Virus record (IMG/VR): IMGVR_UViG_3300030106_003981
Location: 1-41,280 of that record
Direction: 5' to 3' (one strand)
From: a virus
Length of the DNA stretch: 41,280 nucleotides
In this document: positions 1-41,280 of the stretch, in pieces
How positions within the stretch are numbered: position 1 is the first letter of the stretch
How the letters are laid out: each line of letters starts with the position of its first letter
Made by a program: the position numbers and the translations under genes
Notes under the pieces: model-generated
Seen by the model: only the letters and a program-made list of their open reading frames with translations
The model's database searches: none
What the model was told of the DNA's origin: nothing

Positions 1-180
1 GTCATGTTCCACCCTGAATCGCCTTTTTCTGCGATCTGCGCGGATGTGGTTTTGACGAATCCGCCTGGTGTTTTGCCGCCCCATATTCATCCAATCCCTA
101 AGGTTTCAATGAACGACGTAGCGCAAGAATCGCCCGATTCCTATCCCGTTGAGCAAGAATCCGATCTCGTAAAGCAATAG
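1..180 (+). CDS. Secreted protein, C-terminal fragment (second copy)
   Basis: This is the last 59 codons of the same protein encoded whole at 40428-41165, cut by the window edge. It reads in frame from base 1 to a TAG at 178-180. Compared with the complete copy it has Ile for Val and Pro for Thr near the PPH motif, and Leu-Val for Pro-Ala just before the final Lys-Gln. Bases 98-180 also encode the end of the minus-strand proline-rich protein. Its presence shows that the window wraps round the genome; it is not a second gene. Confidence 0.85.
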   Translation, partial: VMFHPESPFSAICADVVLTNPPGVLPPHIHPIPKVSMNDVAQESPDSYPVEQESDLVKQ

Positions 181-295
181 GACGCTCCCCCTTTCTTTTC
201 AAGATCATCTTAGTCACCTTTTTTACTGTAGGCTTCACGATCTTCAACACCACATCACCTAGCGGCCTTGACGCCACAGCGACAGTCGTCGCCAT
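1..295. repeat. Terminal direct repeat, left copy
   Basis: These 295 bases align without gaps to 40986-41280. I count about 17 mismatches (about 94% identity). The repeat covers the end of a secreted-protein gene on the plus strand and the end of a proline-rich-protein gene on the minus strand. A true phage terminal redundancy would normally be identical in both copies. Diverged copies suggest a circular or circularly permuted genome whose contig ends come from two close relatives. Confidence 0.93.
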
Positions 296-790
296 AGCCG
301 CAATCACTGCAGTCGTGACCACAACAGGCGCACCAGGTAAATAAGCGCTGATGATCGTTGGTACGTCCAGCGGTTTGAGGATTGGTTCACACGTCCCAGT
401 CATCTCATTGCGTTCGTAACCAATTATGACGGCGGTTTGAGATTTGTTCCGCGCTCCTAAAGGAATTGCGTCGGGTGGCGGACAAGGCAACTTCGGCTTT
501 ACCATTGAAGGCGGAGGAGTTTGAGACGCTTCTTCGTTCAGGGACGGAATCGGAGGGCTTGACACACCCTCCGGTTTTGCTTCCTCTGCGGGTTGCATCG
601 TCGGTTTCGGGCTTGCCGGCGGTGCAATCCCAGGCGTTATATCCATTGGGTCATACACTGGCAGATCTGCTGTTGGTATGTCCATCCACGTCGTTATTGG
701 TGGCACCTTTGGTAAAACTGGATTTGGTATCGGCCTAGGCGCTGGTATCTCTGTCAAACTAATATCCTTGATAGGTCTAATCTGAGGCAT
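98..790 (-). CDS. Proline-rich membrane protein
   Basis: A 230-residue protein of unknown function. The first 110 residues are very rich in Pro, with a CPPPDA motif near residue 103. A YERN...TGTCEP segment follows, then one hydrophobic stretch at about 152-172 (likely membrane-spanning), and a basic tail rich in Lys and Arg. This layout resembles an uncharacterised protein I recall from marine cyanophages. It is the last gene of the late minus-strand block. Its last 83 bases overlap, in antisense, the end of the secreted-protein gene. The part repeated at the right edge of the window has 12 base changes but no amino-acid change, which shows the frame is under selection. Confidence 0.8.
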   Translation of the reverse strand: MPQIRPIKDISLTEIPAPRPIPNPVLPKVPPITTWMDIPTADLPVYDPMDITPGIAPPASPKPTMQPAEEAKPEGVSSPPIPSLNEEASQTPPPSMVKPKLPCPPPDAIPLGARNKSQTAVIIGYERNEMTGTCEPILKPLDVPTIISAYLPGAPVVVTTAVIAAMATTVAVASRPLGDVVLKIVKPTVKKVTKMILKRKGERPIALRDRILAQRDRNRAILALRRSLKP

Positions 791-1127
791 GAAAGCAGAA
801 CGGTTTCAATCAGGACAGTTGATCGTGGAACGTATCCGAAACCGTGAAGGTCCGCCTGTAGTGTACATAGCTTTTAATGGCAAAACTGCTAGACCATTCA
901 CTGACAAAAAAGAACTCCTCAAGTTTATTCGCTGCCCCAAGAGCGTTCCAACAGGTGAAGCCATTCGTGATTGGATCGATAGCTTTGATCAGCCACCGGG
1001 CAACGTGATTGATGGGATTGCAGGACCAGTTTCAACCGGCAACTCTGGCATCGCATCCTGTACAGCAGGGGGCAACGCTCCAGCAATAGCCTCACTAATC
1101 TTGCTTTGGATTTCAGTCTGTACTTGA
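789..1127 (+). CDS. Hypothetical protein opposing its neighbours
   Basis: A 112-codon plus-strand frame in an otherwise minus-strand region. It fills the 198-base gap between two minus-strand genes. Residues 1-67 look protein-like: charged, with an aromatic-rich VVYIAFNGK segment followed by Lys/Arg-rich helices. The rest lies antisense to the 989-1243 gene and is low in information. Its ATG overlaps the ATG of the 98-790 gene within a CATG. I do not recognise a family. It may be a real regulator or small early protein, or a chance frame in a leader. Confidence 0.42.
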   Translation: MKAERFQSGQLIVERIRNREGPPVVYIAFNGKTARPFTDKKELLKFIRCPKSVPTGEAIRDWIDSFDQPPGNVIDGIAGPVSTGNSGIASCTAGGNAPAIASLILLWISVCT

Positions 1128-1243
1128 TCCATGAACCGCGTCGTCAGTTGCGGAATCTTCGTGTAGGCAACAACAGCAACGGCAGTCAACGCTCCAGACA
1201 TCAGGAACGCTGTCACAGCCATGGCATTGACTAGCTTTTGCAT
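989..1243 (-). CDS. Small membrane-anchored late protein
   Basis: An 84-residue protein with one N-terminal hydrophobic segment (about residues 8-27), then an amphipathic helix and a Pro-rich tail containing VETGPAIP. I recall similar short proteins ending in a TGPALP-like motif from marine cyanophages, with no known role. It lies between the porin-like gene and the proline-rich membrane protein gene, both also predicted to be envelope proteins. A minus-strand terminator lies just upstream, so it may depend on read-through. Confidence 0.7.
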   Translation of the reverse strand: MQKLVNAMAVTAFLMSGALTAVAVVAYTKIPQLTTRFMDQVQTEIQSKISEAIAGALPPAVQDAMPELPVETGPAIPSITLPGG

Positions 1244-1271
1244 TTGACCTTAGACGGGTTCGTTGGCAAAC

Positions 1272-1306
1272 AAAAAGCCCCCGGGCAGCTCTACCTAACC
1301 GGAGGC
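1272..1306 (-). terminator. Intrinsic terminator after the porin-like gene
   Basis: On the minus strand the arms GCCTCCGG (1306-1299) and CCGGGGGC (1284-1277) form an 8-bp stem with one G-T pair, followed by five T residues (1276-1272). It sits 40 bases after the stop of the 1346-1705 gene. Confidence 0.8.
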
Positions 1307-1345
1307 TAATTGCTGTTCCGTGCGAGAGAACAATCAGATTCTAGC

Positions 1346-1705
1346 TCAGAAGACGAGCTTGCCTCCCAGCTTGATGCCATAAGCGGCATCTTCGTCGTCG
1401 AACTTAGCCATCCCAACCTCGGTATAGAGATCGATGTTGCTACTCACAGCAGCCGAAATCCCGGTTTTGCCTGAAAAACCCCATTCGGAGTCAGAACCGT
1501 CGTTAGACAGAGCAGGTCCAGCTTGGATGTAAAAAGGCCCTTCTTGGAACCCCGCGTGCAGCTCTAGCGAACTCGCAACAAACTCAGCGCCTGAAAATCC
1601 AGCGTTATACTCTGGATTCACGTAAATCTCGCCAGCCTCGGAGGCAGGAGATCCCAGCACAGACGCCATAGCGACGGCAGTACTCGCAATCAGTTTTTTG
1701 ATCAT
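1346..1705 (-). CDS. Small porin-like outer-membrane protein
   Basis: A 119-residue protein with a clear Sec signal peptide. Residues 1-24 are MIKK, then a hydrophobic run, with probable cleavage after SEA and before GEIYVNPEY. The mature part has alternating aromatic/polar strands (FYIQAGPA, WGFSGK, LYTEVGMAKF) and ends in KLVF, a terminal Phe typical of outer-membrane beta-barrels. I recall close relatives in marine cyanophages and picocyanobacteria, about the same length and lacking a full 16-strand porin. The phage could place it in the outer membrane of the infected cell; the function is unknown. It is the last gene before a terminator. Confidence 0.8.
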   Translation of the reverse strand: MIKKLIASTAVAMASVLGSPASEAGEIYVNPEYNAGFSGAEFVASSLELHAGFQEGPFYIQAGPALSNDGSDSEWGFSGKTGISAAVSSNIDLYTEVGMAKFDDEDAAYGIKLGGKLVF

Positions 1706-1823
1706 GTGAAAAAAAATTATCGGGAGCCTTGGCCACGGTAAGGCTTTTTGTCGTTTTTGGGGCGGGAGTGTTGGCCATTTCCTTGTCTGGTTTTTTTGGG
1801 TTTACCAACAATGAAAATGTCAT
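1605..1823 (-). CDS. Doubtful small frame upstream of the porin-like gene
   Basis: A 72-codon frame that starts 18 bases after the preceding gene ends and fills the gap of about 135 bases before the porin-like gene. Its last 100 bases overlap that gene in another frame. An internal ATG at 1778 has AAGGAA just upstream. The sequence is Lys/Pro-rich with no known family. It may be only a leader region. Confidence 0.3.
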   Translation of the reverse strand: MTFSLLVNPKKPDKEMANTPAPKTTKSLTVAKAPDNFFSHDQKTDCEYCRRYGVCAGISCLRGWRDLRESRV

Positions 1824-1841
1824 TACTTAATGACTTGGCCA

Positions 1842-2024
1842 TTACCCTTCCGCTCCAAGCAACATACCAGCATATTTCTGGTGTAGCCCTACGAACAATC
1901 CATGCTCTGGATGATCGACGGATTCACGACCGTCCAAAGCATAAAGAAAATTCAGCCATGCCACGCGGGATCTCATGACATGCACATCTTCTCCGCCAGG
2001 CAGCTTTGCCGCTAATGGGTTCAT
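1842..2024 (-). CDS. Small conserved late protein
   Basis: A 60-residue protein of unknown function with a helical centre (residues about 15-30, RSRVAWLNFLYALDGR) and an HPEHGLF motif. I recall small proteins with a HPEHGLFxGL motif beside fibre genes in marine cyanophages, so this is likely a real conserved family. I choose the ATG at 2024 because it overlaps the stop of the 2021-2350 gene as ATGA. An ATG six bases earlier is equally possible. Confidence 0.65.
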   Translation of the reverse strand: MNPLAAKLPGGEDVHVMRSRVAWLNFLYALDGRESVDHPEHGLFVGLHQKYAGMLLGAEG

Positions 2025-2350
2025 GCCCATGGCTTGCCTTGCGCTGTGGTTGGTGTGCGCTTCTCATCGATGCGTGCCTGGAGCGCATTCTGGATTTCAG
2101 TGACCTTCTCGTCACCGCCAAGAGCCTGCTTCGTCCACTGCAAGCAAAGTTCTTCAGTTAAATCGTCGTAAGCGACAACGGTGTAGCCCTCCTCTGGCGG
2201 AGCTTCCAAACCAACGGAACCGTAAGCGCCTTCAGAGTAGGTGCCGTCTGTTGCACTGATGTTGTAATGGACGTTATAGATAATCCCTGAACTGGTGTGC
2301 CTTTCTAGAGTGTTAATTGACCAAGTGAACGTGGTGACGGGATCAGCCAT
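2021..2350 (-). CDS. Conserved phage protein next to the fibre gene
   Basis: A 109-residue protein: a beta-rich first half (TTFTWSINTLER, NVHYNISATDG, YGSVGLE) and a helical second half ending in a charged tail. It belongs, by memory, to an uncharacterised phage family found with fibres of marine cyanophages (DUF7936-like, low certainty about the number). It lies 31 bases after the S74 fibre gene and is coupled to the next gene by ATGA. A virion or fibre-associated role is an inference from position. Confidence 0.7.
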   Translation of the reverse strand: MADPVTTFTWSINTLERHTSSGIIYNVHYNISATDGTYSEGAYGSVGLEAPPEEGYTVVAYDDLTEELCLQWTKQALGGDEKVTEIQNALQARIDEKRTPTTAQGKPWA

Positions 2351-2381
2351 GATTTAAATGCTTTCGGGATGAGTTTAGCCG

Positions 2382-4049: not shown

Positions 4050-4101
4050 TAGAAATACCGCATTATCCTGATTCTACAAGCTTCGCAAGCCAACGCCTAG
4101 A

Positions 4102-26125: not shown

Positions 26126-26250
26126 GAACAGAAATCCTGGCAAGAATAGTTAACATTTTTCCCGATTCGTTTATGTGGTTTTTCCCTGTTTCCGTAATTC
26201 ACAGAAGCATAGAGATTAGTCGCATTAAATCATCGAGGGCGATTCAATGA
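26122..26250 (+). CDS. Tiny hydrophobic peptide, coupled on both sides
   Basis: A 42-residue peptide, ATG at 26122 inside an ATGA overlap with the preceding gene, and stop at 26248-26250 overlapping the next start as ATGA. The sequence (ILARIVNIFPDSFMWFFPVSVIHRSI) is a likely membrane helix followed by a basic end. Double four-base overlaps argue that it is a real gene, translated with its neighbours. Function unknown. Confidence 0.6.
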   Translation: MRTEILARIVNIFPDSFMWFFPVSVIHRSIEISRIKSSRAIQ

Positions 26251-26939
26251 CTATTTCTGAATCATTGTTTCACCTTTCGCGGGTTTCGTCTAATAAAAAG
26301 ACGGGACCGATCGCAGTCACGACGACATCAAAAAATAGTTGTCCGAAGGATTGCGGAATGCGCGAAGTTTGTTATGCGGCATCGGGTCCGCTTAATCTTC
26401 ACTGGAATGCCGTTTCAAGCGGTCAACGTTCCAGGGGATGGCGGGATCATTTGGATGATCTTTCTACTTTGCCAGTTGGTTCAGCGTTACGGTTGAATCA
26501 AGCTGGTGACTTAGTGGCGGGGATGTCCGGTCGATTGTCTCGAGCTTTTCTCAATGGCCTTGTGTCTGTTGTGAAGGCTCGCAGGCTGCAGGCTTGGACG
26601 TATACGCACCATGATCACATGATCGGCGAGAATGCCAAACTGCTGAGGCGTGCTAATCGTGAGGGCTTGCGGATCAACGTTTCGACAGAAACAGAAAAAT
26701 CTGCAGACCGTGCGATAGCTGCAGGCCTTCCGGCTGTATTGGCTGTCTCAAGCCATGAAAGCCGAACAGTTTGGAGAACAGCAGACCGAAATCTAGTTAA
26801 GGTTTGCCCTGCTCAGATTCGGGACACTGACTGCAGTCGATGCATGTTATGCCATAAGCGAGGTTCAAAGGTGATTATCGCTTTTCTCGCGCATGGTATT
26901 AGAAAAAAAACTGCAAATTTGTTTCTATCACCCGCCTAA
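26247..26939 (+). CDS. Cys-rich phage protein (DUF7227-like)
   Basis: A 230-residue protein of a family I recall from many phages but which has no known function. Near the N-terminus is C32-x3-C36-x5-C42 followed by SGPLNLHW. The middle has LRLNQAGDL and WTYTHHDHM. Near the end is C187-x8-C196-x2-C199-x2-C202, then AFLAHG. These Cys and His could bind zinc or an iron-sulphur cluster, a guess. It is the third member of a coupled group and its TAA stop is the loop of the terminator. Confidence 0.75.
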   Translation: MTISESLFHLSRVSSNKKTGPIAVTTTSKNSCPKDCGMREVCYAASGPLNLHWNAVSSGQRSRGWRDHLDDLSTLPVGSALRLNQAGDLVAGMSGRLSRAFLNGLVSVVKARRLQAWTYTHHDHMIGENAKLLRRANREGLRINVSTETEKSADRAIAAGLPAVLAVSSHESRTVWRTADRNLVKVCPAQIRDTDCSRCMLCHKRGSKVIIAFLAHGIRKKTANLFLSPA

Positions 26940-29503: not shown

Positions 29504-29662
29504 TTCCACATCTCTCGACCATCCGTCCTCCTCCATAGGACGCTCCAAAACATACAATCTGAGCAGGCGTTTCATCTCTTCGAGATCGACGTCTGCTTTT
29601 TTTGCACCTATCGCTACGTTGTAACGTAGGTGATATAAATCATCTAAGATTTCGTCGATCAA
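29483..29662 (-). CDS. Small acidic helical protein after the exonuclease
   Basis: A 59-codon frame with a TTG start at 29662 that overlaps the exonuclease stop, with GGAG seven bases upstream in TTGGAGCG. The product starts with MIDEILDDLYHLRY and ends WSRDVELGWPWV. It fills the gap that would otherwise be empty and overlaps the convergent gene by 21 bases. A terminator for the opposite strand lies inside it. Likely real but of unknown function. Confidence 0.5.
   Translation of the reverse strand: MIDEILDDLYHLRYNVAIGAKKADVDLEEMKRLLRLYVLERPMEEDGWSRDVELGWPWV
29563..29603 (+). terminator. Intrinsic terminator of the small-protein operon
   Basis: GCAGGCG (29563-29569) pairs with CGTCTGC (29590-29596; one G-T), with an inner ATCTC/GAGAT stem, followed by seven T. 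It lies 60 bases after the end of the 69-residue gene, within the convergent minus-strand frame. Confidence 0.75.
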
Positions 29663-30489
29663 TCTAACGCTCCAAGATCAAGCATCGCCATATAGTTATC
29701 AAGCCGTTCTTGCCATCGGCATTCACAGCCTCTCATCTCAAGTTCGCTCAACATCCTGAGCTGAACATTACCGTTCGGTTTCGCAATTACCACCGCTCCA
29801 GCATCAACACGAATTCCAGCTCTCTCATGAAGAGCCATACTGTAAGCGCCCAGTTGGTCTTGGTGATCTTTTAGCCATGCCTCAGGCTTATCAGCCTCAC
29901 GGCTGGTCGTCTTAAAATCACAAATTGTCAGGCCCAGTGGTGTGTCGATCAGGGCGTCTGCTGTCCCCGCAAACCCGCCTGAATGACTCACACTAAATTC
30001 CGACGCATGAATGGCCGTTACCGTTCCACTAACCAGCCAATCTGATAAACCTCTGGCGTACTCACGGGCGGGCCATGCAACTTTCGGCGCTCCTTCCATC
30101 GACTTCTTAAGTGCCCAGGCGGTGATGGCTTTTGGAGCGCGTGCCAAACCATCATCCCAAATAGACCACGATCCTTTCTTGTTGGCACTCTGACGGGCCA
30201 GCTTCGCTGCGGTCTTGAGCACGTACTCACAATGCTCATGAGCGATAGTCCCCCGATCGCAAGCAAGCTCACGCTCCAAACCACTGCCGGCTCGCTTTGA
30301 CCAACGTTCCAATGCATCCTTCTGTGCTTGAGGTGCGGTGTGCTTCAGGATATGCGTGACAGAGTGATAAATCTGTCCGTCTTGATCCCGATAAACCCTG
30401 AATGGGCCTGAATTGTCCTGCTCTAACTGCCAACGCCGTAACGAAGCCAGAATGTTCTGCGGATCAGCTTCAATCGTCGTGGTTGGCAT
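29659..30489 (-). CDS. PD-(D/E)XK exonuclease (RecB/Cas4/MGME1-like)
   Basis: A 276-residue nuclease of the PD-(D/E)XK fold. Motifs in order: GTIAHEHCE (H84), GFAGTADAL with Asp178, DFKTTSR with Asp191 and Lys193 (the D-x-K site), and DHQDQLGAYSMAL (Gln212, Tyr216). These are the motif set of RecB-type nucleases (MGME1-like). Expected role: 5-prime end processing or degradation of host DNA in recombination and replication. It is in an operon with an SF2 helicase. Confidence 0.88.
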   Translation of the reverse strand: MPTTTIEADPQNILASLRRWQLEQDNSGPFRVYRDQDGQIYHSVTHILKHTAPQAQKDALERWSKRAGSGLERELACDRGTIAHEHCEYVLKTAAKLARQSANKKGSWSIWDDGLARAPKAITAWALKKSMEGAPKVAWPAREYARGLSDWLVSGTVTAIHASEFSVSHSGGFAGTADALIDTPLGLTICDFKTTSREADKPEAWLKDHQDQLGAYSMALHERAGIRVDAGAVVIAKPNGNVQLRMLSELEMRGCECRWQERLDNYMAMLDLGALD

Positions 30490-30662: not shown

Positions 30663-31331
30663 TTACAAATCAGGTTTTAGCAATACCTGAAGCTCCTGAA
30701 TCAATGCTGCAGAAAACTCGCTCCCTGCTTTGACAACAATCGTTTGAGCAGCTTTGGCTGGATCAGTCAGTCGAACACTTGGAATGTCCTTGATAAATCC
30801 AGCAGCAATAGCGGCAGCACGGGCTGATCGGTACTCACCTCGCTCCAGCTGCTCAGCAATTTCTGGGTGATCACGCCTGAGCCGGGCTTTGATGTAGTCG
30901 GCGCTTTCACTGCCTCTTTTCAACGTGCGGTCCGCACCTTGATCTTGCTGGGCTTGCTCCGACCGTCGATCACCACCGTGACGACTCAGGATTGCTTTCG
31001 CTGGAACCTCTGCTTGAAGCTGTTCTGGATGCTGCAAGTGCAGCAACCTCACTCCTTCGACAACTTGCTCAATCCACGCAGCAGGTCGATGAAACACTTT
31101 CTCGCAAAACTCGTTCCAATTCGGATCGATCTGCTTCCAGTAGTCATCGCGCTGCAGCTCAAGCACCGTTCCAACAAGCCCTCTGCAATCAGAGTCAGCA
31201 ACAAACGCAGACTGTTCTGCAATCAGTCGTCCATGCTGATTCCACCAGTCCAAAGTCTTGCCTACAAAGCGAGGCTTTCGATTTGGGTCAAACAAAGTCT
31301 CCAGATCGGAAACATTCACAGGTTTAGCCAT
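30663..31331 (-). CDS. Hypothetical DNA-binding-like protein
   Basis: A 222-residue protein. The first 115 residues are helical, with WWNQHGRLIAEQSA and WNEFCEKVFHRPAAWIEQVV. A GGDRRSEQAQQ linker leads to a segment DYIKARLRRDHPEIAEQLERGEY followed by SARAAAIAAGF. I recall this last part from phage and cyanobacterial proteins of ParB-like or partition-associated type, with no proven function. It overlaps the helicase stop by 16 bases. Confidence 0.65.
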   Translation of the reverse strand: MAKPVNVSDLETLFDPNRKPRFVGKTLDWWNQHGRLIAEQSAFVADSDCRGLVGTVLELQRDDYWKQIDPNWNEFCEKVFHRPAAWIEQVVEGVRLLHLQHPEQLQAEVPAKAILSRHGGDRRSEQAQQDQGADRTLKRGSESADYIKARLRRDHPEIAEQLERGEYRSARAAAIAAGFIKDIPSVRLTDPAKAAQTIVVKAGSEFSAALIQELQVLLKPDL

Positions 31332-33202
31332 GGGAAATTAAAGCGAATGTGATCAAGAGGGTTAGAGGCGGACTTTAATTCGTCATTTATTGATTTAACC
31401 CATTCATACTTACGAATAAGCTCTTCGATATTCATCTCATCAGTACTCAAGCGAGTTTCACGAACCCAACGCCTATGAATCGCTTTGTGTAAATCACCAA
31501 TTATTGACTTAACAGCAGTGCCGCCCGCTGCTTCTGCCTTGATTCGAGCGACATTCTTGGCTAAAGACCTTACAGCTTCAGCAACCTTGCCTCTTGCCTC
31601 CTTTAGCTGTTCAGTAGTTGAAACACGCTTAGGTTCTACATCGAAGATTTTTCGCAAACGAGCGTCAATCTCATCGTCCGAAGCGTTTTTCAGAGCATCA
31701 AGGTTAGTGCGAGCCTTTGCTCGCGCTTCTGACGCTGAAATCATCTCGCCACCTACTGGATAATAAAACTCCTCGCCTGTGTATTGAGCGTTAAGAATAA
31801 AAAAATCAGGGATGTTATAAATCGGAACACCTGAACTACTACGCTCGGTATCGTTAAATTGCTCCTCATCGTCCTCTGGAAGCAATGTATTATCAGCCAG
31901 GCTTTTCATGTAATCCAAGCCAGGATGATCATCTGATACAAAAATCCAGCACTTATCCTTTCTTGCTCGCGCTCCAGTGTCAGGCTCTAGCGCATAATTT
32001 CGCCGCAGTCCTCTACCAATCATCTGCTTGAGCTGTACGCTCTCGTTGACAAGGTTCAAAAACAACAGGACTGAACATTTAACGTCGTTAAACCCTTCTG
32101 TTGCTTTCTTTACTTGTACTAAAACATTAAACTGACCGTCCTTGAACCGCTGAAGAACTAAACGGTTCTCAGACTCAGACCTGCCAATAACCTTCTTGGT
32201 TCCGTCGTCTCGCACAACTGTTGACTGAACGCCAATCCAATCAGCAACTTTTGCTCCAGCGATATCATTCATTTGATCACAAACGCTTTTGGCGTGACCA
32301 ACGCCAAGCGCAAAAACCAGCATCTTGTGCTGTCCCTGATTCTCAGCATTCAGTTCGTCCAACTTGCCTGAAGCGTCAAGCAAAGCTCTGTGTAAGTATT
32401 TAGGCAGATAACGGAGATCTCTCTTGACCTCCGCTCCAGAAATGTCTTTACCGTCAGCTTGCAGCTCTTTGACTAGATCGCTTGTAGTAAACCGCTGAGG
32501 AGAGTTTTCTTTGCCAAAGCTGATGTCCAAGGCATATTCACTGCTTCTGACCACAACTGGCCTAATTGCGCCCTCCTCAACTGCGTCAACCAGACTGATT
32601 TGAACGTCTGGCTCTCCACTGACAACCTTTTCGGCTTGGTCTGTTCGATTAGGTGTCGCTGAAACCGCAAGCTCAAAAACAGCAGAACTTCTAACAGAAG
32701 CAATGCTTTTACCCCAACTGTTGTTCCTGGCGTAACGATGATACTCATCAAGAGCCAAAAACCATTTGCCGCTGGTCAGCAAATCACTGATAGTCGCAAT
32801 ACTGCCGTTGCCTAAAGCTTGAACGGTAGTAACGAATATCTCTGCTTCGTTCCTCCTGTGACTTCTCAGCGCAAGATTGCTGTTTGCTTGTAAAGCGGCT
32901 GTAATTGGCGCACCAATTTGCGCCATGTCTTGCTCAATCTCTCCTAAATAGCTTTGCAGCTGCTCATCGGAAGGAACAACAATCAAAGCCCGATTGACCA
33001 CACCCTGCGACTTGAGCAATGCATAGGCAGCACAAATTACAAATGTCTTGCCGTACCCAGTTGGCAACTCAGCAGCTAAAAGCCTGGCCTGCCTTGGCCC
33101 TGATTGAGCGTCATCAAGCAGATTCAGGACACGTTCCTGACCCTTCCGTAGCTTGATCGATGACGGCAGCTGCCATCTAAACAAGTCTTTTGTTTGTGAC
33201 AT
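31316..33202 (-). CDS. SF2 helicase
   Basis: A 628-residue helicase of superfamily 2. Walker A ELPTGYGKT (45-53), motif II LDEYH (151-155, a DExH box), motif III VSATPNRT (180-187), and motif VI QMIGRGLRRN in the C-terminal RecA domain. There is a charged, helical C-terminus. No nuclease or methylase domain is fused, so it is not an obvious restriction enzyme. I choose the ATG at 33202; a GTG three codons upstream is possible. Its start overlaps the HNH gene by 79 bases. It likely helps replication or recombination. Confidence 0.9.
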   Translation of the reverse strand: MSQTKDLFRWQLPSSIKLRKGQERVLNLLDDAQSGPRQARLLAAELPTGYGKTFVICAAYALLKSQGVVNRALIVVPSDEQLQSYLGEIEQDMAQIGAPITAALQANSNLALRSHRRNEAEIFVTTVQALGNGSIATISDLLTSGKWFLALDEYHRYARNNSWGKSIASVRSSAVFELAVSATPNRTDQAEKVVSGEPDVQISLVDAVEEGAIRPVVVRSSEYALDISFGKENSPQRFTTSDLVKELQADGKDISGAEVKRDLRYLPKYLHRALLDASGKLDELNAENQGQHKMLVFALGVGHAKSVCDQMNDIAGAKVADWIGVQSTVVRDDGTKKVIGRSESENRLVLQRFKDGQFNVLVQVKKATEGFNDVKCSVLLFLNLVNESVQLKQMIGRGLRRNYALEPDTGARARKDKCWIFVSDDHPGLDYMKSLADNTLLPEDDEEQFNDTERSSSGVPIYNIPDFFILNAQYTGEEFYYPVGGEMISASEARAKARTNLDALKNASDDEIDARLRKIFDVEPKRVSTTEQLKEARGKVAEAVRSLAKNVARIKAEAAGGTAVKSIIGDLHKAIHRRWVRETRLSTDEMNIEELIRKYEWVKSINDELKSASNPLDHIRFNFPWLNL

Positions 33203-33369
33203 GAAAGGCACAGAGCTTGAAACTCTGCAGTCGATGATCCGCCTCCCATCGACAACGGCACCACATGATCACACTCAAAACGCTCTCCGATCTCTTGACC
33301 GCAGAGCGCACACCGATAGTCCTGTAGTGCTAATAAGGCACGTTTTTGACGCTTGGTGGCGTAAGGCAT
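33124..33369 (-). CDS. HNH endonuclease
   Basis: An 81-residue small HNH nuclease. It has C20-x2-C23, the core DH at 34-35 (CDHVVPLSMGG) and C54-x2-C57-H58 (LCLSCHKQKT). These are the metal-binding and catalytic positions of the family. The C-terminal 20 residues are coded by the region shared with the helicase. In many phages an HNH protein works with the terminase; here it is joined to a helicase instead. Confidence 0.85.
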   Translation of the reverse strand: MPYATKRQKRALLALQDYRCALCGQEIGERFECDHVVPLSMGGGSSTAEFQALCLSCHKQKTCLDGSCRHRSSYGRVRNVS

Positions 33370-33448: not shown

Positions 33449-34054
33449 TCAAGCCTCACTAAACGGATCACCGCCGCCGACAAGTCGGCTTAAGTCGAAC
33501 CCTGCCTTGTCTACGGCTTTCCAAGCCTTCTCCATCTCAGCTTCATCATGCTCGTCCTCATCACGGGGAACGATCAGAAGCTCATACTTCACCATGTCAG
33601 CCTTGATCTTTGACAGCTCGAAGTCCCAGTCCAGCAAATTACGGCTGTACTTCTTGTTCAAGCCATACTTTGCAAACTGACGTGCCAATGAAATGTGAGA
33701 CACTTCGAGCACTTGGACGCGATTTGTGTCCCAGTTGTAAACAGGCCAGGTCAGGCATTGTGAAGGCTTACGCACTGCAGTCTTTTCAAAATTCATAGAC
33801 TGCACGTAATCCTTGCCAAGTTCTAGCTCAATATCTTCTTGGCTAGGTTGCTCAACAAAACGAAACGGCTTCATTTTGTCGTTCTCCTTGGCAATACCCC
33901 AGACAAGCCAGTATTCGAGCGGGTCTTGCTCCAATAATGCAAAGTTTGCAGGCTTGCCTTGATCAAGTTTTGTGTACCGCAAATAATCATCTGCGGATGA
34001 AGAACCTTCGTTCTCTTTTTCGATTGAAGCTAGGAAACTGTCTGAGAATTTCAC
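33449..34054 (-). CDS. Single-stranded DNA-binding-like protein
   Basis: A 201-residue protein, GTG start, first gene of the minus-strand replication operon. The layout is a charged N-terminus, a central beta-rich domain (ANFALLEQDPLEYWLVWGIA, KPSQCLTWPVYNW, RVQVLEVSHISLA), and an acidic C-terminal tail DEDEHDEAEME that ends GGGDPFSEA. Phage ssDNA-binding proteins have such an OB-like core and an acidic tail that ends in hydrophobic residues. The call rests on pattern and context only. Confidence 0.55.
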   Translation of the reverse strand: MKFSDSFLASIEKENEGSSSADDYLRYTKLDQGKPANFALLEQDPLEYWLVWGIAKENDKMKPFRFVEQPSQEDIELELGKDYVQSMNFEKTAVRKPSQCLTWPVYNWDTNRVQVLEVSHISLARQFAKYGLNKKYSRNLLDWDFELSKIKADMVKYELLIVPRDEDEHDEAEMEKAWKAVDKAGFDLSRLVGGGDPFSEA

Positions 34055-34213: not shown

Positions 34214-36466
34214 ATGGCTTTTCAGGACTTCGTCAACACTCTCCCTGAGGGACTTGTTTACGCACCAATATATAAAAAAGGTGCCAAAATGCTATCTGGC
34301 AAATTGGCTACTGGCAAAAACCCTTTGGAAGCCAGTTACGAACAAAAGTTTGGCCCTGCTGATGTCGCTCTAGCTATTAAACGTAACCCTGATCTTCAGG
34401 CTGTTGGCATCTTCACTGGTATTCGTGGCAACGGTATTGTCATCCTTGATGTTGATCGTGGGCTGAAAAAACATCTTCGCGCCTGGGGCACCTCCCTCAA
34501 CGGCGCTCCAATAATTACATCCACCAAGACTAACGCCGCTAAATATCTTTTTCGTGTTCCTGAAGAATTATGGGCTGATGTAAAAGGTCATGGTCTTCGC
34601 AAGGAAGATGGTGGAGACTATGAAATCCTCTGGGGTCGCCAGGGTGTTGTCTTCGGCGCTTATCCAGGCGGCAAAGTTTCTACGCCTGGTGAATATCACT
34701 TTGAGGGCAACCTAGATAAAATACCGACAGCTCCTGATTGGCTGCTAGCTGAAATGAAGCAGCCGCCACGTACCATCACAAAAAAAGATCTGGATTTCTC
34801 TGATCGCACTCAAGACGAGATTGCCCAGATCGTTCATGAATGCCTCTCTGTCATTACGCCCCAAGGGAAAGGCACCCGTGATCACTGGATCAAGATCGGC
34901 ATGGCGATCAATTCCACGCTGCCAAACGATCTTGGACTCATGTTGTGGTCAGCCTGGTCAGCCGAAGATCCTGATTACGCTAATGAATGGGAAGATTACA
35001 ATCCCTGCGAAGAAGTCTGGTATTCGTTCAGCGGCAATGGTGTTGGCCTTGGCACTCTGATCTGGCTTGCAGACCGGGAGGATCCACAACGTAAACGATT
35101 TTCAGAAGACACTGCAAAAATCGTTCAATCCGCAGAAGCCAAAGTTGTAACTGAAATCCGTCAGGCCACTCTTGACTTCGCTGAAGTCATGCGTCGTGCC
35201 AAACAAATTCTTGATCTTGATAACCCGGCTGAGGTAAATTACAAGCTAAATTCTTTGGCTCTGCAGGCTGGTTATCGCGATCAGACTGCTTTGGAAAAAC
35301 TGATCGTCGATCAGATCGCTTACGAAAAAGCTCAATCACTTATGACTGTTGAAAAACTAATGGAGCTTGATGAAAAGCGTGGCTACCTTATCCCTGATGT
35401 TCTTCCGCATCCTTCTGTCATCCTCATCTATGGCGCTGGTGGTGATGGTAAATCCACTGCGGCTTGGGCGCTTGCTAAGCACATCGCAACTGGCAAACCT
35501 TTCAAGGTTCGTGGTGCTGACGTCCCAACAACGCAAGGCCCTGTTTTGCTTCTCAACGGTGACCAGCCTCTGATCCAGTTAAAGGAACAGCTGATTGAAG
35601 CTGATTTTCCGATCACTGATCAAACCTTTATTCAAACTGATTGGCAACTTCAAAGGTATGCTCAGTTCATTAAGTTGATGGAGACTTATAAGCCTAAGCT
35701 TGTTGTTATTGATTCTTTGATTGGTTGCTCTGGTGGTCGGGCGTTTGATGAAAACAAATCTGATTTCGCTACTCCGTTGTACTGGTTGACCAAAAACAAC
35801 GGTGATCTTTTCCCCGCTACCACCATTCTGATCATCCACCATGCCAACAAAAACGGTGGATTCCGGGGCACCTCAGCCATCCGTGACGCCGTAGATGAAA
35901 CATGGTCTCTCAAGCGGAGTGAGCCAGACCCCCAGAAACGCTCCAAACAGCAACAGCAGCTGCAGCCGCATGAACGGCTCATTGAGGTGGAGAAGAGCCG
36001 CTCAGGCCGCTCTGGGACGCATCTCATCCTTGGACAGGACGATGACCTCAACTTCTACATTGCTGACTTCACGCCTGAGATGGATCCAGACGACACCACA
36101 CCCTCCTCTGTTCAGGGTCGTGTGCTGAGTCGCTTGAGAACCGCTTACCCCGAGTCACGCACCAAAACCGATCTCCTCGCTGATCCGCTGGTGGCTGGTT
36201 CTGCTGCCGCAATCAAGAAGACGCTCCAAAGACTCGAAGCTCAACAACTCATAGTCTCTTACGTCCCAAAAAATTCTCGTTCCAAACAATACACAGCTAA
36301 TCTCGCGCGTGGAGAGGGTCAGAGGCTGTCCCCTTTTGGTACGGATGCCAGTGATGGAGCGGGATCTGATGCGGGACAAAGCTTAGGGGACATTGATCTT
36401 GTCCCCGAGCTTGCTGATGGAGCGGTTGAGATTCAGCTGACTGAAGAACAACAGGGACAAGTCTGA
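34214..36466 (+). CDS. Primase-polymerase / RecA-like helicase
   Basis: A 750-residue replication protein with three parts. Residues 1-170 are a prim-pol domain, with a VILDVDRG motif (Asp79, Asp81). About 200-290 is a PriCT-like linker domain (ITPQGKGTRDHWIKIGMAI). About 395-590 is a RecA-like ATPase with Walker A GAGGDGKST (about 406-414), Walker B LVVIDS (about 497-502) and a HHANKNGGFRGTSAIRDA segment. The rest is a small winged-helix-like tail plus a Gly/Asp-rich end. It is the only replicative helicase/primase here, and no DNA polymerase is encoded. The strong hairpin lies 25 bases upstream of the ATG. Confidence 0.88.
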   Translation: MAFQDFVNTLPEGLVYAPIYKKGAKMLSGKLATGKNPLEASYEQKFGPADVALAIKRNPDLQAVGIFTGIRGNGIVILDVDRGLKKHLRAWGTSLNGAPIITSTKTNAAKYLFRVPEELWADVKGHGLRKEDGGDYEILWGRQGVVFGAYPGGKVSTPGEYHFEGNLDKIPTAPDWLLAEMKQPPRTITKKDLDFSDRTQDEIAQIVHECLSVITPQGKGTRDHWIKIGMAINSTLPNDLGLMLWSAWSAEDPDYANEWEDYNPCEEVWYSFSGNGVGLGTLIWLADREDPQRKRFSEDTAKIVQSAEAKVVTEIRQATLDFAEVMRRAKQILDLDNPAEVNYKLNSLALQAGYRDQTALEKLIVDQIAYEKAQSLMTVEKLMELDEKRGYLIPDVLPHPSVILIYGAGGDGKSTAAWALAKHIATGKPFKVRGADVPTTQGPVLLLNGDQPLIQLKEQLIEADFPITDQTFIQTDWQLQRYAQFIKLMETYKPKLVVIDSLIGCSGGRAFDENKSDFATPLYWLTKNNGDLFPATTILIIHHANKNGGFRGTSAIRDAVDETWSLKRSEPDPQKRSKQQQQLQPHERLIEVEKSRSGRSGTHLILGQDDDLNFYIADFTPEMDPDDTTPSSVQGRVLSRLRTAYPESRTKTDLLADPLVAGSAAAIKKTLQRLEAQQLIVSYVPKNSRSKQYTANLARGEGQRLSPFGTDASDGAGSDAGQSLGDIDLVPELADGAVEIQLTEEQQGQV

Positions 36467-36530
36467 CTGTCCCTATAGGCTGTCCCCAACTAAATCCCTT
36501 GGCATCACTGGCATTTGGAGCGTTGGGGAC
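36326..36530. repeat. Cluster of TGTCCC repeats, origin- or operator-like
   Basis: Within 205 bases I find seven exact TGTCCC sites and one near copy. Positions: 36328-36333 (+), 36373-36378 (-), 36387-36392 (-), 36400-36405 (+), 36454-36459 (-), 36468-36473 (+), 36481-36486 (+), and GGGGAC at 36525-36530 (-). Four neighbouring pairs are inverted. GGGGACA-N7-TGTCCCC (36386-36406) and AGGGACA-N8-TGTCCCT (36453-36474) are perfect. GTCCCCAAC (36482-36490) pairs with GTTGGGGAC (36522-36530). The cluster spans the end of the primase gene and the gap behind it. Random expectation is about 0.1 sites. Confidence 0.75.
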
Positions 36531-36557
36531 GTATTTCACATCTATACGCGCGCGAGA

Positions 36558-36692
36558 ATGAACTGGACTGAGATTTTGGAGCGTGCCGGCGTACCAGAGC
36601 CACCTGGCTACCATGAAACTGTAAAATTAGTGATGGCTAGGACATATATCAAATCGTCTCAAAAGCAAAAGTCAAAACGCAAAAAGAAGTAA
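36558..36692 (+). CDS. Tiny helical protein with a Lys-rich tail
   Basis: A 44-residue gene after the TGTCCC cluster: MNWTEILERAGVPEPPGYHE, then a helix and a Lys/Ser-rich tail. It follows the primase gene by 91 bases and precedes a regulator gene by nine. I recall short proteins starting with WxEILxxAGVPEPPG in marine phages. Function unknown. Confidence 0.65.
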   Translation: MNWTEILERAGVPEPPGYHETVKLVMARTYIKSSQKQKSKRKKK

Positions 36693-36701: not shown

Positions 36702-36974
36702 ATGAAAGAGATCAAAGCGTACCTGCCGCCTGAGCTTGTAGACCAACTCTCTAGTCAGGCCAAAGAGCAAGGTATCAATCGCTCAGAGTTGATTCGCAAT
36801 CGACTCATGGCCTCCCAGTCCGACTTCAAACTTTCTCCCAATGATTTTCAGAAAACTGTTATTAAAATTCGTCGCCGCTATAGCTATGGTCTGGACAGGC
36901 AACAAGCCGAAAGCGTTGTTGCTGCAGTCATCTCCGAACTCTTTAACAACATCCAAAATGACCAGAAAAATTAA
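36702..36974 (+). CDS. Ribbon-helix-helix regulator
   Basis: A 90-residue protein whose first 45 residues are a typical ribbon-helix-helix (EIKAYLPPELVDQLSSQAKEQ, then INRSELIRNRLM). The C-terminal half is helical with LDRQQAESVVAAVISELF. RHH proteins bind DNA as dimers of dimers, often to inverted repeats; the TGTCCC cluster 170 bases upstream is a possible target. It overlaps the next gene by 17 bases. Confidence 0.75.
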   Translation: MKEIKAYLPPELVDQLSSQAKEQGINRSELIRNRLMASQSDFKLSPNDFQKTVIKIRRRYSYGLDRQQAESVVAAVISELFNNIQNDQKN

Positions 36975-37209: not shown

Positions 37210-37382
37210 GGTATGTTCAGATCTTTCGACGAAATAAAGATTGGATTGTTTTAACCGATGATCATACAGTAACGTTCCATCAAACCCTTGCTGGAGCGAT
37301 GGAACATGCCTCCGCCCAAATCAGGACGCCAGCTTATTCTGGAGCGGCTTTACAAGGCCATGAATCTCTCGACTACTGCTGA
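37206..37382 (+). CDS. Small protein, coupled to the previous gene
   Basis: A 58-residue frame with its ATG inside an ATGA overlap. The protein starts MRYVQIFRRNKDWIVLTDDH, a beta-hairpin-like pattern, and continues with an Ala-rich helix. Its last 77 bases overlap the next frame. Overlap of this size makes one of the two doubtful; the ATGA start speaks for this one. Confidence 0.5.
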   Translation: MRYVQIFRRNKDWIVLTDDHTVTFHQTLAGAMEHASAQIRTPAYSGAALQGHESLDYC

Positions 37383-37515
37383 CCTCCAAAGAGCTGCAAT
37401 GTTTTTGGAACGGGCGCGAGAGATCCGCAACGGCTGTCGCAACCAGCGCAACACCTCCCGCTCCAATCAACGCACAGCCTGGAAAAAGCGTGTCGATGAT
37501 TCCGTTACATGGTAA
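37306..37515 (+). CDS. Small basic protein overlapping its neighbour
   Basis: A 69-residue frame with ATG at 37306; a TTG start at 37288 would give 75. It has a helical pattern (SGRQLILERLYKAMNL, LQRAAMFLERAREI) and a basic, Arg/Asn-rich tail. It overlaps the preceding frame by 77 bases. Its helix pattern and basic tail look protein-like, but it could be a shadow. No family recognised. Confidence 0.5.
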   Translation: MPPPKSGRQLILERLYKAMNLSTTADLQRAAMFLERAREIRNGCRNQRNTSRSNQRTAWKKRVDDSVTW

Positions 37516-37540
37516 CGTTTGGCTAGCACATTATTGAGCA

Positions 37541-37819: not shown

Positions 37820-37992
37820 GCGACTGCCTGCTTTAATAATTTAGATTGGTGCCAGCTCTGTCTCGCTAAGGCCACACATAATTGAGACAAGACCTCTATA
37901 TCACTGCAACTTTCAATCTCACGCACTGACCGTTCCAAACCTAATTCCTCTTCAAGGGTTTGCCCCACGATCATCCAGTCGGCCCAGCCCAT
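37774..37992 (-). CDS. Small helical protein, last in the lysis-like cassette
   Basis: A 72-residue protein: MGWADWMIVGQTLEEELGLER, then helices with a Cys-containing centre. I choose the ATG at 37992, with AGGA about six bases upstream. It overlaps the preceding minus-strand gene by 41 bases and the convergent gene by 46. Function unknown. Confidence 0.5.
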   Translation of the reverse strand: MGWADWMIVGQTLEEELGLERSVREIESCSDIEVLSQLCVALARQSWHQSKLLKQAVAHIASFDDSMTAARD

Positions 37993-38185
37993 TGGATTCC
38001 TGCAAAGTACACTTCTCCGCATGATAAGCGCCATTTTCGTGCATGTGAACCACGTCGTGAATCCAAGGCACCATCCATTCATGCACAGGAAAACAATTAT
38101 CCCAATTTGTGGGGTGAGCGCAAGTGATCACAACTGTTGTAAAGAAGCTGTGTATAAATGCCCATACCCAGTAAAGATCACTCAT
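37952..38185 (-). CDS. Small membrane protein of the lysis-like cassette
   Basis: A 77-residue protein with a hydrophobic N-terminal stretch (about residues 4-23, YWVWAFIHSFFTTVVITCAH), then a His-rich segment HEWMVPWIHDVVHMHENGAYH. It starts with ATG 8 bases inside the peptidase stop, so it is translationally coupled. His residues could bind a metal. A holin- or spanin-like helper is a guess from context. Confidence 0.6.
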   Translation of the reverse strand: MSDLYWVWAFIHSFFTTVVITCAHPTNWDNCFPVHEWMVPWIHDVVHMHENGAYHAEKCTLQESNGLGRLDDRGANP

Positions 38186-38915
38186 TGTCCACCAAGATCA
38201 CCCAGCCAGTTCCAGGGCCTTCTACTTCCCAGCGTGGCTTGAACTCACGTTGAAGAACTTTGACGTCGCGACCTTTATGCGGGTTTTTATGGCCGCCTTT
38301 GACTAAGTCTGGTTCGCCTCTAGGGTCTTGCATAATCCAACCCGGGTCAGCACTATTCTTGCCGTAATATCCACTGATTACGCTCCAATGCCCACACCCC
38401 ATCCCACCGCAACCAATCGAATGACCAAGGCTCAAATCGCCGTGATGATACCAACCAACCATCACAGGTCTTGCGTTTTCTAGCTCTAGCTCTACTAAGT
38501 CTGCATCGCCATCATTCCGAAACTGCACGTTTAAACCCAAACTTTCTAACGTCTCAATTTGCGCCTGAACAGACGTCGTGTCACCAAACTTGGCGCGAAT
38601 CTGATTATATTCATCATCTGTTTTAACCTTATTATAAAAAGCTGCCACCATCGCTGCCGCTGAGCTGAAACACTCTCGATAACCAGTCCCTGTGATGTTA
38701 TCGTGCTGGGTGAAGTATGGCATGTAAATCTCTTGATCATATCCAGATGCCTTCCATGCCTCAAACCATTCGGCATCCGTCTTAAGTAATTCCGGGTCAA
38801 TGGATTCTTCAAGCTGTTTAACAGCTGCAAGTTGGTGAGGGGAGTCATTTCTGAAATGTTCAAAGAAAGGTAGCAATGACAGCAAGCCCACGGAAAACCA
38901 AATGCGTTGCTTCAT
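38178..38915 (-). CDS. C39-like cysteine peptidase, lysis candidate
   Basis: A 245-residue protein with an N-terminal hydrophobic signal-anchor (residues 4-18, RIWFSVGLLSLLPFF). The peptidase region starts at about 60 (YMPYFTQHDN), with the catalytic Cys82 in RECFSSAAAM and the His in GCGHWSVISGYYG, followed by WIMQDPRG. This is the C39/papain-like pattern. I choose ATG 38915 (ATGA overlap with the upstream gene); a TTG six codons earlier is possible. With small membrane proteins around it, it is the best endolysin candidate. A tail-related or maturation protease cannot be excluded. Confidence 0.75.
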   Translation of the reverse strand: MKQRIWFSVGLLSLLPFFEHFRNDSPHQLAAVKQLEESIDPELLKTDAEWFEAWKASGYDQEIYMPYFTQHDNITGTGYRECFSSAAAMVAAFYNKVKTDDEYNQIRAKFGDTTSVQAQIETLESLGLNVQFRNDGDADLVELELENARPVMVGWYHHGDLSLGHSIGCGGMGCGHWSVISGYYGKNSADPGWIMQDPRGEPDLVKGGHKNPHKGRDVKVLQREFKPRWEVEGPGTGWVILVDNE

Positions 38916-39052
38916 TCTAACGAGGCTTGGCAACTAGCATTTAGCCCAGCAGTGTACGCAGCTCCAAACAATAAGCCAGAAAGCCCTATAAATCCGGCTG
39001 CCGCTCCACCAAGAAAAAACCAGCCTAGGGCTAATCCCCAATGTGGCTTCAC
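38912..39052 (-). CDS. Tiny membrane protein before the peptidase
   Basis: A 46-residue gene with GTG start that overlaps the preceding stop (GTGA) and whose own stop overlaps the peptidase start (ATGA). The protein is one long hydrophobic, Gly/Ala-rich helix (LALGWFFLGGAAAGFIGLSG, then LLFGAAYTAGL). A single-pass holin, pinholin or anchor is plausible. Four-base overlaps on both sides make it very likely real. Confidence 0.7.
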   Translation of the reverse strand: MKPHWGLALGWFFLGGAAAGFIGLSGLLFGAAYTAGLNASCQASLE

Positions 39053-39222
39053 TTCTCTACCCTGCTGGTTGGGAACAGATTCTGCCTCACATAATCCACA
39101 ACACGATCATCAATCGTTGTGTCAGTTGTCTTGGCATATGCCTCCAACATCTCGATCAGCATTTTCTTGACGCCTTCAGACTGAAGGAACCTGAACAAAA
39201 TTGGCTTGATCAGTAGCAGCAT
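39049..39222 (-). CDS. Small helical protein, first in the lysis-like cassette
   Basis: A 57-residue gene: MLLLIKPILFRFLQSEGV, helices and a charged tail with DDRVVDYVRQNLFPTS. It starts near the divergent plus-strand gene at 39267 and is coupled by GTGA to the next gene. The N-terminal hydrophobic part could insert into a membrane. Function unknown. Confidence 0.65.
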   Translation of the reverse strand: MLLLIKPILFRFLQSEGVKKMLIEMLEAYAKTTDTTIDDRVVDYVRQNLFPTSRVEK

Positions 39223-39266
39223 GGATCGAAATCAGCGTTACCCTTTAAGCGTAGCTGTCTTGTGCA

Positions 39267-39512
39267 ATGGCTAACCAAAACGAAGAGCATCCAGGCTGGA
39301 TCTCAGATCTCATCCGTTTGATCGTCTTGGCGTGGTCACTTGCCTGCCTGTCACTGTCCTATCTCGGACAGGTCAAAGCCATGGACCCAACTTTCGCCGC
39401 TTCGATGCTGACAGCTGTTCTCAGCTCCTATGGCGTCAGCGTTGGCAAGAACGGCAAAAACAAAGAAGAGCCTAAACTAGAGTCAAGCACTGCTCCCGCT
39501 GTCAAAAAATGA
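39267..39512 (+). CDS. Holin-like membrane protein
   Basis: An 81-residue protein: a short charged start, one or two membrane segments (about residues 13-32, LIRLIVLAWSLACLSLSYLG, and 44-58, SMLTAVLSSYGVSV), and a Lys/Glu-rich tail. This is the layout of small phage holins. It lies divergently from the lysis-like cassette and is coupled by ATGA to the first secreted-protein gene. Confidence 0.6.
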   Translation: MANQNEEHPGWISDLIRLIVLAWSLACLSLSYLGQVKAMDPTFAASMLTAVLSSYGVSVGKNGKNKEEPKLESSTAPAVKK

Positions 39513-40003
39513 AGCGTCTCCTCCTAGCATTCACGCTCACGTTGATTGCCGCTCCAGTGCAAGCGGATATTATCAATAAAATTTCGTCGTCAGTTCAACT
39601 CACTGTTGATGGAGCGGGATCAGTTGCAACGCGAATCCCGTCTTCAATGGCAGTATCTGGCAATAACGTCACTCTGGACACTGCTCCTGTGCTTGGCACA
39701 CTTACTTCCGGCACCGCTCTTGGTTACACTCCTGGTAAGTACAGCATTACTACTGCTGGTGACGCTTTTTCGTATGCAGAGTCATACACAGAAGGAGACG
39801 ACGTTCCAGCGATCCTCTCAACAACAGTCACCTCCGGAGTAGTGCCTAGTCTTCCAATCTTTGGCAGCACAACCACAACTTCCGGCGGACTTAAAGGTGA
39901 TCTTGCTGGTACGATTGCAACCGATGGTGCCATCTCAATTACATCTGGCGGAGCTGGTACAACCGCAATCGGCCAAGTTATTCAAGAGCTGACGATCAAG
40001 TGA
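39509..40003 (+). CDS. Secreted protein 1 of a cyanophage-type trio
   Basis: A 164-residue protein with a Sec signal peptide (about residues 1-19, MKRLLLAFTLTLIAAPVQA, cleavage before DIINKI). The mature part is Ser/Thr/Gly-rich and beta-rich, with SSVQLTVDGAG at the start and GGAGTTAIGQVIQELTIK at the end. I recall this type from marine cyanophages, where it stands beside two other secreted proteins, as here. Role unknown; it may act in the envelope of the infected cell. Confidence 0.78.
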   Translation: MKRLLLAFTLTLIAAPVQADIINKISSSVQLTVDGAGSVATRIPSSMAVSGNNVTLDTAPVLGTLTSGTALGYTPGKYSITTAGDAFSYAESYTEGDDVPAILSTTVTSGVVPSLPIFGSTTTTSGGLKGDLAGTIATDGAISITSGGAGTTAIGQVIQELTIK

Positions 40004-40431
40004 TGCTTAAAGTATTTGTCGCGCTCATCCTACTGGATGCAACAGCTGCTGCTGCAGTCCCTGTCATACCAAACTTTCAACAGGGCACAACCAGCAGCAC
40101 AACAACGACAAAAACTAAAGTCAATGAAGTCATAAATTCTTACCAGTACCGCACTGGCTACGAATACACTGTCTCGGGATCTAACGTAAAATCTGATGAG
40201 TTCGTCGCGCCAATGGCTCTAACGACGACAACAAACACAATCGATGGTATTTCTAGTCGCTGGGTGGGGCTTGATCCTGCTGATAAGCCTATTTGGAACA
40301 TTGTGGAAGAAGGTGCGCCGTTCCAATTTGCTGAAACGCTTCAGGGGCCAGGGCTTACGCAACACACAGTCATCGTCCGCGAAACGGACATTGAACAGCT
40401 AACTGAGACTACATCTACATTTAGCCAATGA
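40003..40431 (+). CDS. Secreted protein 2 of the trio
   Basis: A 142-residue protein with a hydrophobic signal peptide (residues 1-18, MLKVFVALILLDATAAAA), then VPVIPNFQQGTTSSTTTTKT, a conserved-looking start, and a beta-rich remainder (YQYRTGYEYTVSGSN). I choose the ATG at 40003 overlapping the preceding stop as TGATG; a GTG one codon earlier is possible. Coupled to the next gene by ATGA. Function unknown. Confidence 0.78.
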   Translation: MLKVFVALILLDATAAAAVPVIPNFQQGTTSSTTTTKTKVNEVINSYQYRTGYEYTVSGSNVKSDEFVAPMALTTTTNTIDGISSRWVGLDPADKPIWNIVEEGAPFQFAETLQGPGLTQHTVIVRETDIEQLTETTSTFSQ

Positions 40432-41165
40432 AACGTCTCCTAGCAGCAATCCTGCTAACCTCCGCTCCAGTGAACGCACAAGTCTCAAGTACCGCAGCCC
40501 CGGTCGCGAACAGTAGTGGCAGTGTTACCAACCAAGCCGTTCAGGTGGTGCCTTCGCGTCAATACACTTGGAATTACGGTTCTGGAATCAGCTGCCAAGG
40601 TGCCACGTTAAATATCAATCCATTCCTTACTACCACCACAGGCTGGAGCACTCCAACCGAGCATTATTACGACAACCCTGTTTACGACAACAGTGACATT
40701 GAAGGCGCATTCGATCCAGAAGGCAATCCTATTCCTGATGGCGTCCCTGATCGCCCAGGCCATGTTCTCTACTACCAGCCAGTCAGAACAGGACAAAAAA
40801 CAAACTTTTCCGTCAACGGAGGAATCACCGCAACGATCTCAGTCCCTCTCGACCGCCATCATGTAAAGCTTTGCAGGCAGGCGGCGGAAAAACAAGTAAA
40901 GCTCTTTGAGGCCCAGCTGGCAGATAAGCGCCTGAACTACGAAATTGCACGCCTGAAAAATTGCGCGAAACTGCTTAAAGATGGTGTCATGTTCCACCCT
41001 GAATCGCCTTTTTCTGCGATCTGCGCGGATGTGGTTTTGACGAATCCGCCTGGTGTTTTGCCTCCGCATGTGCATACAATCCCTAAGGTTTCAATGAACG
41101 ACGTAGCGCAAGAATCGCCCGATTCCTATCCCGTTGAGCAAGAATCCGATCCCGCAAAGCAATAG
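40428..41165 (+). CDS. Secreted protein 3 of the trio, intact copy
   Basis: A 245-residue protein with a short signal peptide (residues 1-17, MKRLLAAILLTSAPVNA). The centre begins with SGSVTNQAVQVVPSRQYTWNYG and has a Cys (SCQGATLNINPF), which I recall as the typical start of this cyanophage family. The second half is a coiled coil (about 160-180, KQVKLFEAQLADKRLNYEIA) followed by a Pro-rich end. The last 83 bases overlap the minus-strand proline-rich protein gene in antisense. The end is duplicated at the left edge of the window. Confidence 0.82.
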   Translation: MKRLLAAILLTSAPVNAQVSSTAAPVANSSGSVTNQAVQVVPSRQYTWNYGSGISCQGATLNINPFLTTTTGWSTPTEHYYDNPVYDNSDIEGAFDPEGNPIPDGVPDRPGHVLYYQPVRTGQKTNFSVNGGITATISVPLDRHHVKLCRQAAEKQVKLFEAQLADKRLNYEIARLKNCAKLLKDGVMFHPESPFSAICADVVLTNPPGVLPPHVHTIPKVSMNDVAQESPDSYPVEQESDPAKQ

Positions 41166-41280
41166 GACGTTCTCCCTTTCTTTTCAAAATCATCTTAGTC
41201 ACTTTTTTAACTGTGGGCTTCACGATCTTCAGCACCACATCACCTAGCGGCCTAGATGCAACAGCGACAGTCGTCGCCAT
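40986..41280. repeat. Terminal direct repeat, right copy
   Basis: This is the right copy of the 295-base repeat described for 1-295. Mismatches lie in clusters: five within 13 bases near 41063-41075, the rest spread. No gaps. Confidence 0.93.
41083..41280 (-). CDS. Proline-rich membrane protein, C-terminal fragment (second copy)
   Basis: The last 65 codons of the protein encoded by 98-790, cut by the window edge. It has the same amino-acid sequence as the first copy although 12 bases differ. It carries the Val/Ala end of the hydrophobic segment and the Lys/Arg-rich tail. Confidence 0.85.
   Translation of the reverse strand: MATTVAVASRPLGDVVLKIVKPTVKKVTKMILKRKGERPIALRDRILAQRDRNRAILALRRSLKP

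Follow-up and report, generated by a model that had tools for sequence, protein, structure and literature searches.

The PrimPols known to date recognise a short stretch of template through a helix-bundle domain, and the enzyme of NrS-1 starts at the base 5' of its site (PMC8718748). RSF1010 carries one 40-nucleotide ssi per strand (ssiA and ssiB) and has a leading-strand replication mode (PMC4434180), the putative origin of pRN1 lies directly downstream of its PrimPol-helicase gene (PMC4234260), and 177 pentanucleotide sites for gp4 of T7 are found in the lagging-strand region (PMC12839067). Here we analyze the virus record IMGVR_UViG_3300030106_003981 of IMG/VR at its full length of 41,280 nucleotides (hereafter the window), which comes from a tailed phage and contains genes for the portal, TerL, the major capsid and a siphovirus-like tail. 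The word CGYTCCA occurs 89 times along the whole record (1..41280), 68 times on the + strand and 21 times on the - strand. On sequence evidence, we estimate a probability of about 70% that this word is recognised on the template by the PrimPol-helicase that the phage itself encodes (750 amino acids, 34214..36466, + strand), and that it serves genome-wide for lagging-strand priming and, at the origin, for strand initiation.

The excess is real and larger than in the sequence-only reading of this genome, in which 46 + 37 = 83 sites had been counted by eye. Exact counts are 49 for CGCTCCA/TGGAGCG (39 on +, 10 on -) and 40 for CGTTCCA/TGGAACG (29 on +, 11 on -), ranks 1 and 2 among all 7-mers of the window. 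Order-2 Markov models predict 5.6 and 6.7 sites, respectively, and order-3 models 8.9 and 6.4, that is, totals of 12-15 versus the 89 found, and the mirror control of the pattern has 9 matches. That earlier reading held that a Markov model of order 4-5 predicting 60 or more sites would speak against the excess. At order 5 the expectation indeed reaches 42 + 28 = 70, a figure that is circular because the fitted 6-mers themselves lie inside the motif; the other controls, which are not circular, keep the excess. Its claim of a pyrimidine at the third base holds in the window genome (CGATCCA, 12 sites versus 7.4 expected; CGGTCCA, 2 versus 4.2), as does its estimate that three in four sites read CGYTCCA on the + strand (76%). 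It was also correct in discarding codon use, since the sites fall in each of the three frames and in genes of either strand, 22 of the 89 touch non-coding DNA (15% of the window is called non-coding), and shuffling synonymous codons within genes yields 12.2 +/- 3.4 coding sites where 67 are observed. Of the individual copies that it singled out, the two lying ahead of plus-strand starts (27.53 and 34.20 kb) did not stand out from the rest, and the one at 29.67 kb, described as overlapping a ribosome-site-like position, sits within the 3' end of an exonuclease gene.

The word has sharp limits. When 18 related genomes are pooled, the window included, any substitution at positions 1, 2, 5, 6 or 7 makes the count drop to 0.7-1.2x expectation. 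Position 3 shows graded enrichment (C 6.9x, T 5.1x, A 2.7x, G 0.8x) and so does position 4 (T 5.8x, C 2.9x, A 2.8x, G 1.9x), the pooled consensus being CG-H-N-CCA, or TGG-N-D-CG on the opposite strand. In the same genomes, the base that follows the word is a purine in 73% of cases, versus 59% after other TCCA. The variant CGCACCA, with A at position 4, is also clearly enriched in the relatives G003, G025, L122 and L083. Window sites are kept in relatives more often than control 7-mers (43% versus 18%, with a control that is not composition-matched), and + strand CGHTCCA sites are separated by a mean gap of 537 bp with Poisson-like spacing.

The orientation of the word is independent of gene direction, with a similar + bias in + genes (304:123) and in - genes (636:218). 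It flips, with words pointing inward, a short distance inside the 3' terminus of the PrimPol-helicase gene and exactly at an iteron array. In the window, the left arm of this convergent cluster contains CGCTCCA at 35939..35945 and 36222..36228 and CGTTCCA at 36278..36284, the last + site ahead of the switch. The first - site past it, CGCTCCA at 36355..36361, is followed in the right arm by further - strand copies of the same form at 36418..36424, 36516..36522 and 36577..36583. The iteron-like array, which we propose as the origin, comprises 7 copies of TGTCCC/GGGACA in 36327..36486 (36327+, 36373-, 36387-, 36400+, 36454-, 36468+ and 36481+). Within each genome such repeats are nearly confined to the flip, and their spelling there is clade-specific, being TGTCCC in the window and either TGTCCCA or TGTCCAGG among its relatives. 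The same convergent flip is present in three primase clades (A, B and C), down to ~36% identity, at around -150, 0 or +100 bp relative to the PrimPol gene end depending on the clade, and most cases also have an iteron array. Judging by its layout, the combination of array and flip appears to be the anatomy of an iteron origin. To the left of the flip the orientation is nearly pure > over ~6 kb, and farther round the genome it amounts to 59-83%. The GC skew at four-fold sites points weakly to a fork running leftward, and the effects of gene strand on it are about as large. A second, mixed cluster lies at 37273..37465 (37273+, 37292-, 37340-, 37406- and 37459+), and many relatives have a comparable one at a similar distance. 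A short alternating CGCGCG tract adjoins the iterons (36545-36556), and G003, G013 and G021 have similar ones close to their switch. Immediately downstream of the array, a CopG/ribbon-helix-helix protein (36702-36974), conserved across clade A and in G024 and G021, is a candidate iteron-binding protein.

The PrimPol-helicase combines Prim-Pol, PriCT_2 and RepA-like AAA_25 domains (Pfam). The Prim-Pol domain scores 24.5 bits against PF09250 (cut-off 22.8) and the helix-bundle (PriCT) domain that follows the catalytic one 55.1 bits against PF08707 (cut-off 22); residues D79 and D81 and the Walker A motif are invariant. In its AlphaFold model (pLDDT 74, pTM 0.43), the helicase fold best matches RSF1010 RepA (Foldseek 1nlf, 1olo and 1g8y; E ~4e-9 to 1e-7, TMt 0.61-0.64), a likeness of fold only.

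We compared the best 80 of 333 related stretches retrieved from viral contigs with the PrimPol-helicase as query. Among them, the word is a leading 7-mer in the closer relatives (primase identity of at least 68%), with ~2-4 copies per kb. In a separate, distant set (primase ~36-38% identical, GC 0.37) the word reaches ~1.8 per kb with CGATCCA as the commonest form, and all listed distant-PrimPol loci of at least 9 kb have at least 0.96 sites per kb. Low-GC phages sharing portal segments 97-98% identical fall into two groups, one with PrimPol and the word, the other with few or no sites. The PrimPol-encoding G033, G034 and G040 carry the word, with synonymous-shuffle z values of 14.2, 10.5 and 4.7. 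The same portal lineage without PrimPol has 0 sites in L188, 3 in G035, 2 in G039, 10 in G038, 19 in G037 and 26 in G036, the last three being long records (30-37 kb) and the others shorter. The sites remaining in G036 (L277, L278) and G037 (L279, L280) are found mainly in tail genes and look like remnants of module exchange with a motif-bearing phage. Three window genes, encoding the exonuclease, a 201-amino-acid protein and the PrimPol-helicase, are present in 19 of 19 motif-bearing relatives and in 0 of the motif-lacking genomes tested (tblastn). The tolerance at position 3 is itself clade-specific: in counts from partly redundant loci, clade B avoids CGGTCCA (0 versus 4 and 1 versus 7 expected, 0.0-0.1x), and clade C is enriched in it (123 versus 24 expected, 5.1x). 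Because this form differs between low-GC clade B and clade C at equal GC (0.37), position-3 specificity follows the primase clade and not base composition. A scan of bacterial genomes found five contigs only (L081-L085), all carrying this phage primase and most with a clear motif; their bins are labelled proteobacterium, Microbacteriaceae, Planctomycetota, Saprospirales and Sphingobacteriales, and they are probably mis-binned phage contigs.

We infer from these patterns direct recognition of the word by the PrimPol-helicase. The enzyme would read 5'-TGG-N-D-CG-3' on a single-stranded template (N usually A, and D usually A or G in the window). Its primers would start at the base adjoining the site on the 5' side, where a template pyrimidine would give the purine start suggested by the purine preference at position +8. 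With a fork moving leftward, CGYTCCA on the + strand would place TGGARCG on the lagging-strand template every ~0.5 kb, and leading-strand synthesis of that fork would begin from the - words immediately to the right of the flip. An origin at 36.3-36.6 kb, with the iteron array, would have inward-facing sites that let both strands start, and selection for priming would maintain the genome-wide excess. The binding site proposed in the sequence-only reading was right in kind, although replication priming, the best fit, was absent from its options. More broadly, we are inclined to think, with somewhat less confidence, that in a whole family of uncultured marine phages replication relies on a fused PrimPol-RepA enzyme, whose recognition word of 5-7 bases is spread over the entire genome with its polarity running from an iteron origin. 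Specificity, clade shifts, origin and fork direction would then be readable from sequence, and module swaps would leave remnants.

Several observations weigh against primase recognition. Regular spacing, as fixed Okazaki lengths would give, was looked for and not found, the spacing being random. The polarity right of the switch is mixed, ~48% immediately beyond it, and clear iterons were not seen in G021 and G033. At 7 bases, the site is longer than the 3-5 bases of ORF904 and T7. Among the phages devoid of PrimPol, G036 and G037 retain a 2.6-2.7-fold excess over synonymous expectation, and PrimPol-less records may be fragments, all the records being from uncultured viruses and possibly incomplete. 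The exonuclease and the 201-amino-acid protein co-occur with the motif as well as PrimPol does, and either could be the reader. Finally, no comparable word was found in five distant-PrimPol phages (S-EIVl, in its first 50 kb only, phiHSIC, ZP6, Sa179lw and pYD21-A). As other PrimPol phages have no such word, a primase of unusual specificity would be required for this signature.

The main rival, which we regard as unlikely, is a Chi-like role, whereby the word would regulate a helicase-nuclease, either RecBCD/AddAB of the host or a recombination nuclease of the phage, and protect the phage DNA, its polarity following replication as in E. coli Chi. An overrepresented, polarised, sharp 7-mer with a ~3:1 strand skew tracking replication rather than genes is what such a role would entail, and a PD-(D/E)XK exonuclease (phrog_298; 29659..30489, - strand) is present in every motif-bearing genome compared. 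Unlike Chi, however, the word is tied to a PrimPol module, nor would one expect, for Chi, densely packed convergent sites around the iterons or a start-position purine. No phage helicase-nuclease is conserved with the word either: the SF2 helicase of the window (31316-33211), perhaps a recent local acquisition, is in none of the motif-bearing relatives compared, for which reason it was also rejected as the motif reader. Moreover, PrimPol-less phages of the same portal lineage lack or nearly lack the motif even though G036 keeps a phrog_298 exonuclease and G038 a phrog_16 helicase. Slightly less probable still, the word might be the site of another replication protein, either the 201-amino-acid protein (33449..34054, - strand) or a helicase-loading, pausing or segregation factor. 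The gene of the former adjoins the PrimPol gene and is in every motif-bearing genome compared, a perfect co-occurrence. A role for it as a single-stranded DNA-binding protein (SSB) is a guess: its AlphaFold2 model is good (pLDDT 90), but the fold search with it gave no significant match and only weak OB-fold ones. SSB proteins seldom read sequence, and the clade-dependent tolerance at position 3 and the adjoining purine suit a primase better.

It is very improbable that the word is a compositional artefact or reflects codon use, mutation bias or an oligonucleotide habit of the host. In favor of such readings, the commonest form concentrates in a single frame (frame 2 of - genes, with 30 sites). 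The synonymous-shuffle, Markov and mirror controls nevertheless refute composition and codon use, and the non-coding sites and the similar polarity in + and - genes speak in the same direction. Mutation bias, one of the options of the sequence-only reading, is opposed by the sharp edges of the word, the conservation of its sites and the flip in polarity. Host habit is disfavored too: phages with nearly the same portal and no PrimPol have no excess or mainly tail-module remnants, the isolates KBS-S-2A and S-H1 (host Synechococcus WH7803) have no excess, and none was found either in S-2L, L188, G035 and G039. Packaging, likewise suggested earlier, is unlikely, as one terminase lineage is seen both with and without the motif.

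Elsewhere in the window, the protein encoded at 38178-38933 matches an endolysin phrog and has a C70/C39-like papain-fold peptidase domain, and a DUF7227 protein is encoded in the early region (26247-26939).

Primase sites are usually known from biochemistry alone, because most primases read few bases and leave little trace in genomes. A site that is long, sharp, genome-wide and polarised would make the origin, the fork direction and the primase specificity predictable for hundreds of uncultured marine phages, and the difference between clades at position 3 could readily be used to find out which PrimPol residues recognise the template. A literature search, in an incomplete library, found no description of this signature.

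Compared with known systems, the PrimPol of NrS-1, which reads 5'-TTTGGTTA-3' and GTG, resembles that of the window in being a phage PrimPol with a helix-bundle domain and a long sequence-specific site. A PDB sequence profile search did not return NrS-1, which places their kinship at the domain level only. RSF1010 (IncQ), with its RepA helicase and RepB' primase, shares a RepA-fold helicase, a primase of the AEP type and opposed initiation sites at an iteron-bearing origin, a match that in the window concerns sequence arrangement only. It differs in that the window primase and helicase are fused, with 89 short sites genome-wide versus one 40-nucleotide ssi per strand. ORF904 of pRN1 (Prim-Pol plus SF3 helicase) is likewise a PrimPol-helicase fusion with a putative origin just downstream, but it reads GTG only, has a helicase of another superfamily (SF3) and a stem-loop origin. 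T7 gp4, reading 5'-(G/T)2GTC-3', provides the parallel of template-specific priming sites across a phage genome of ~37-40 kb, although its primase is unrelated (TOPRIM) and its site shorter and less specific. The site proposed here would resemble the PrimPol priming sites of NrS-1 and ORF904 and the ssi of RSF1010, except for its spread across the whole genome.

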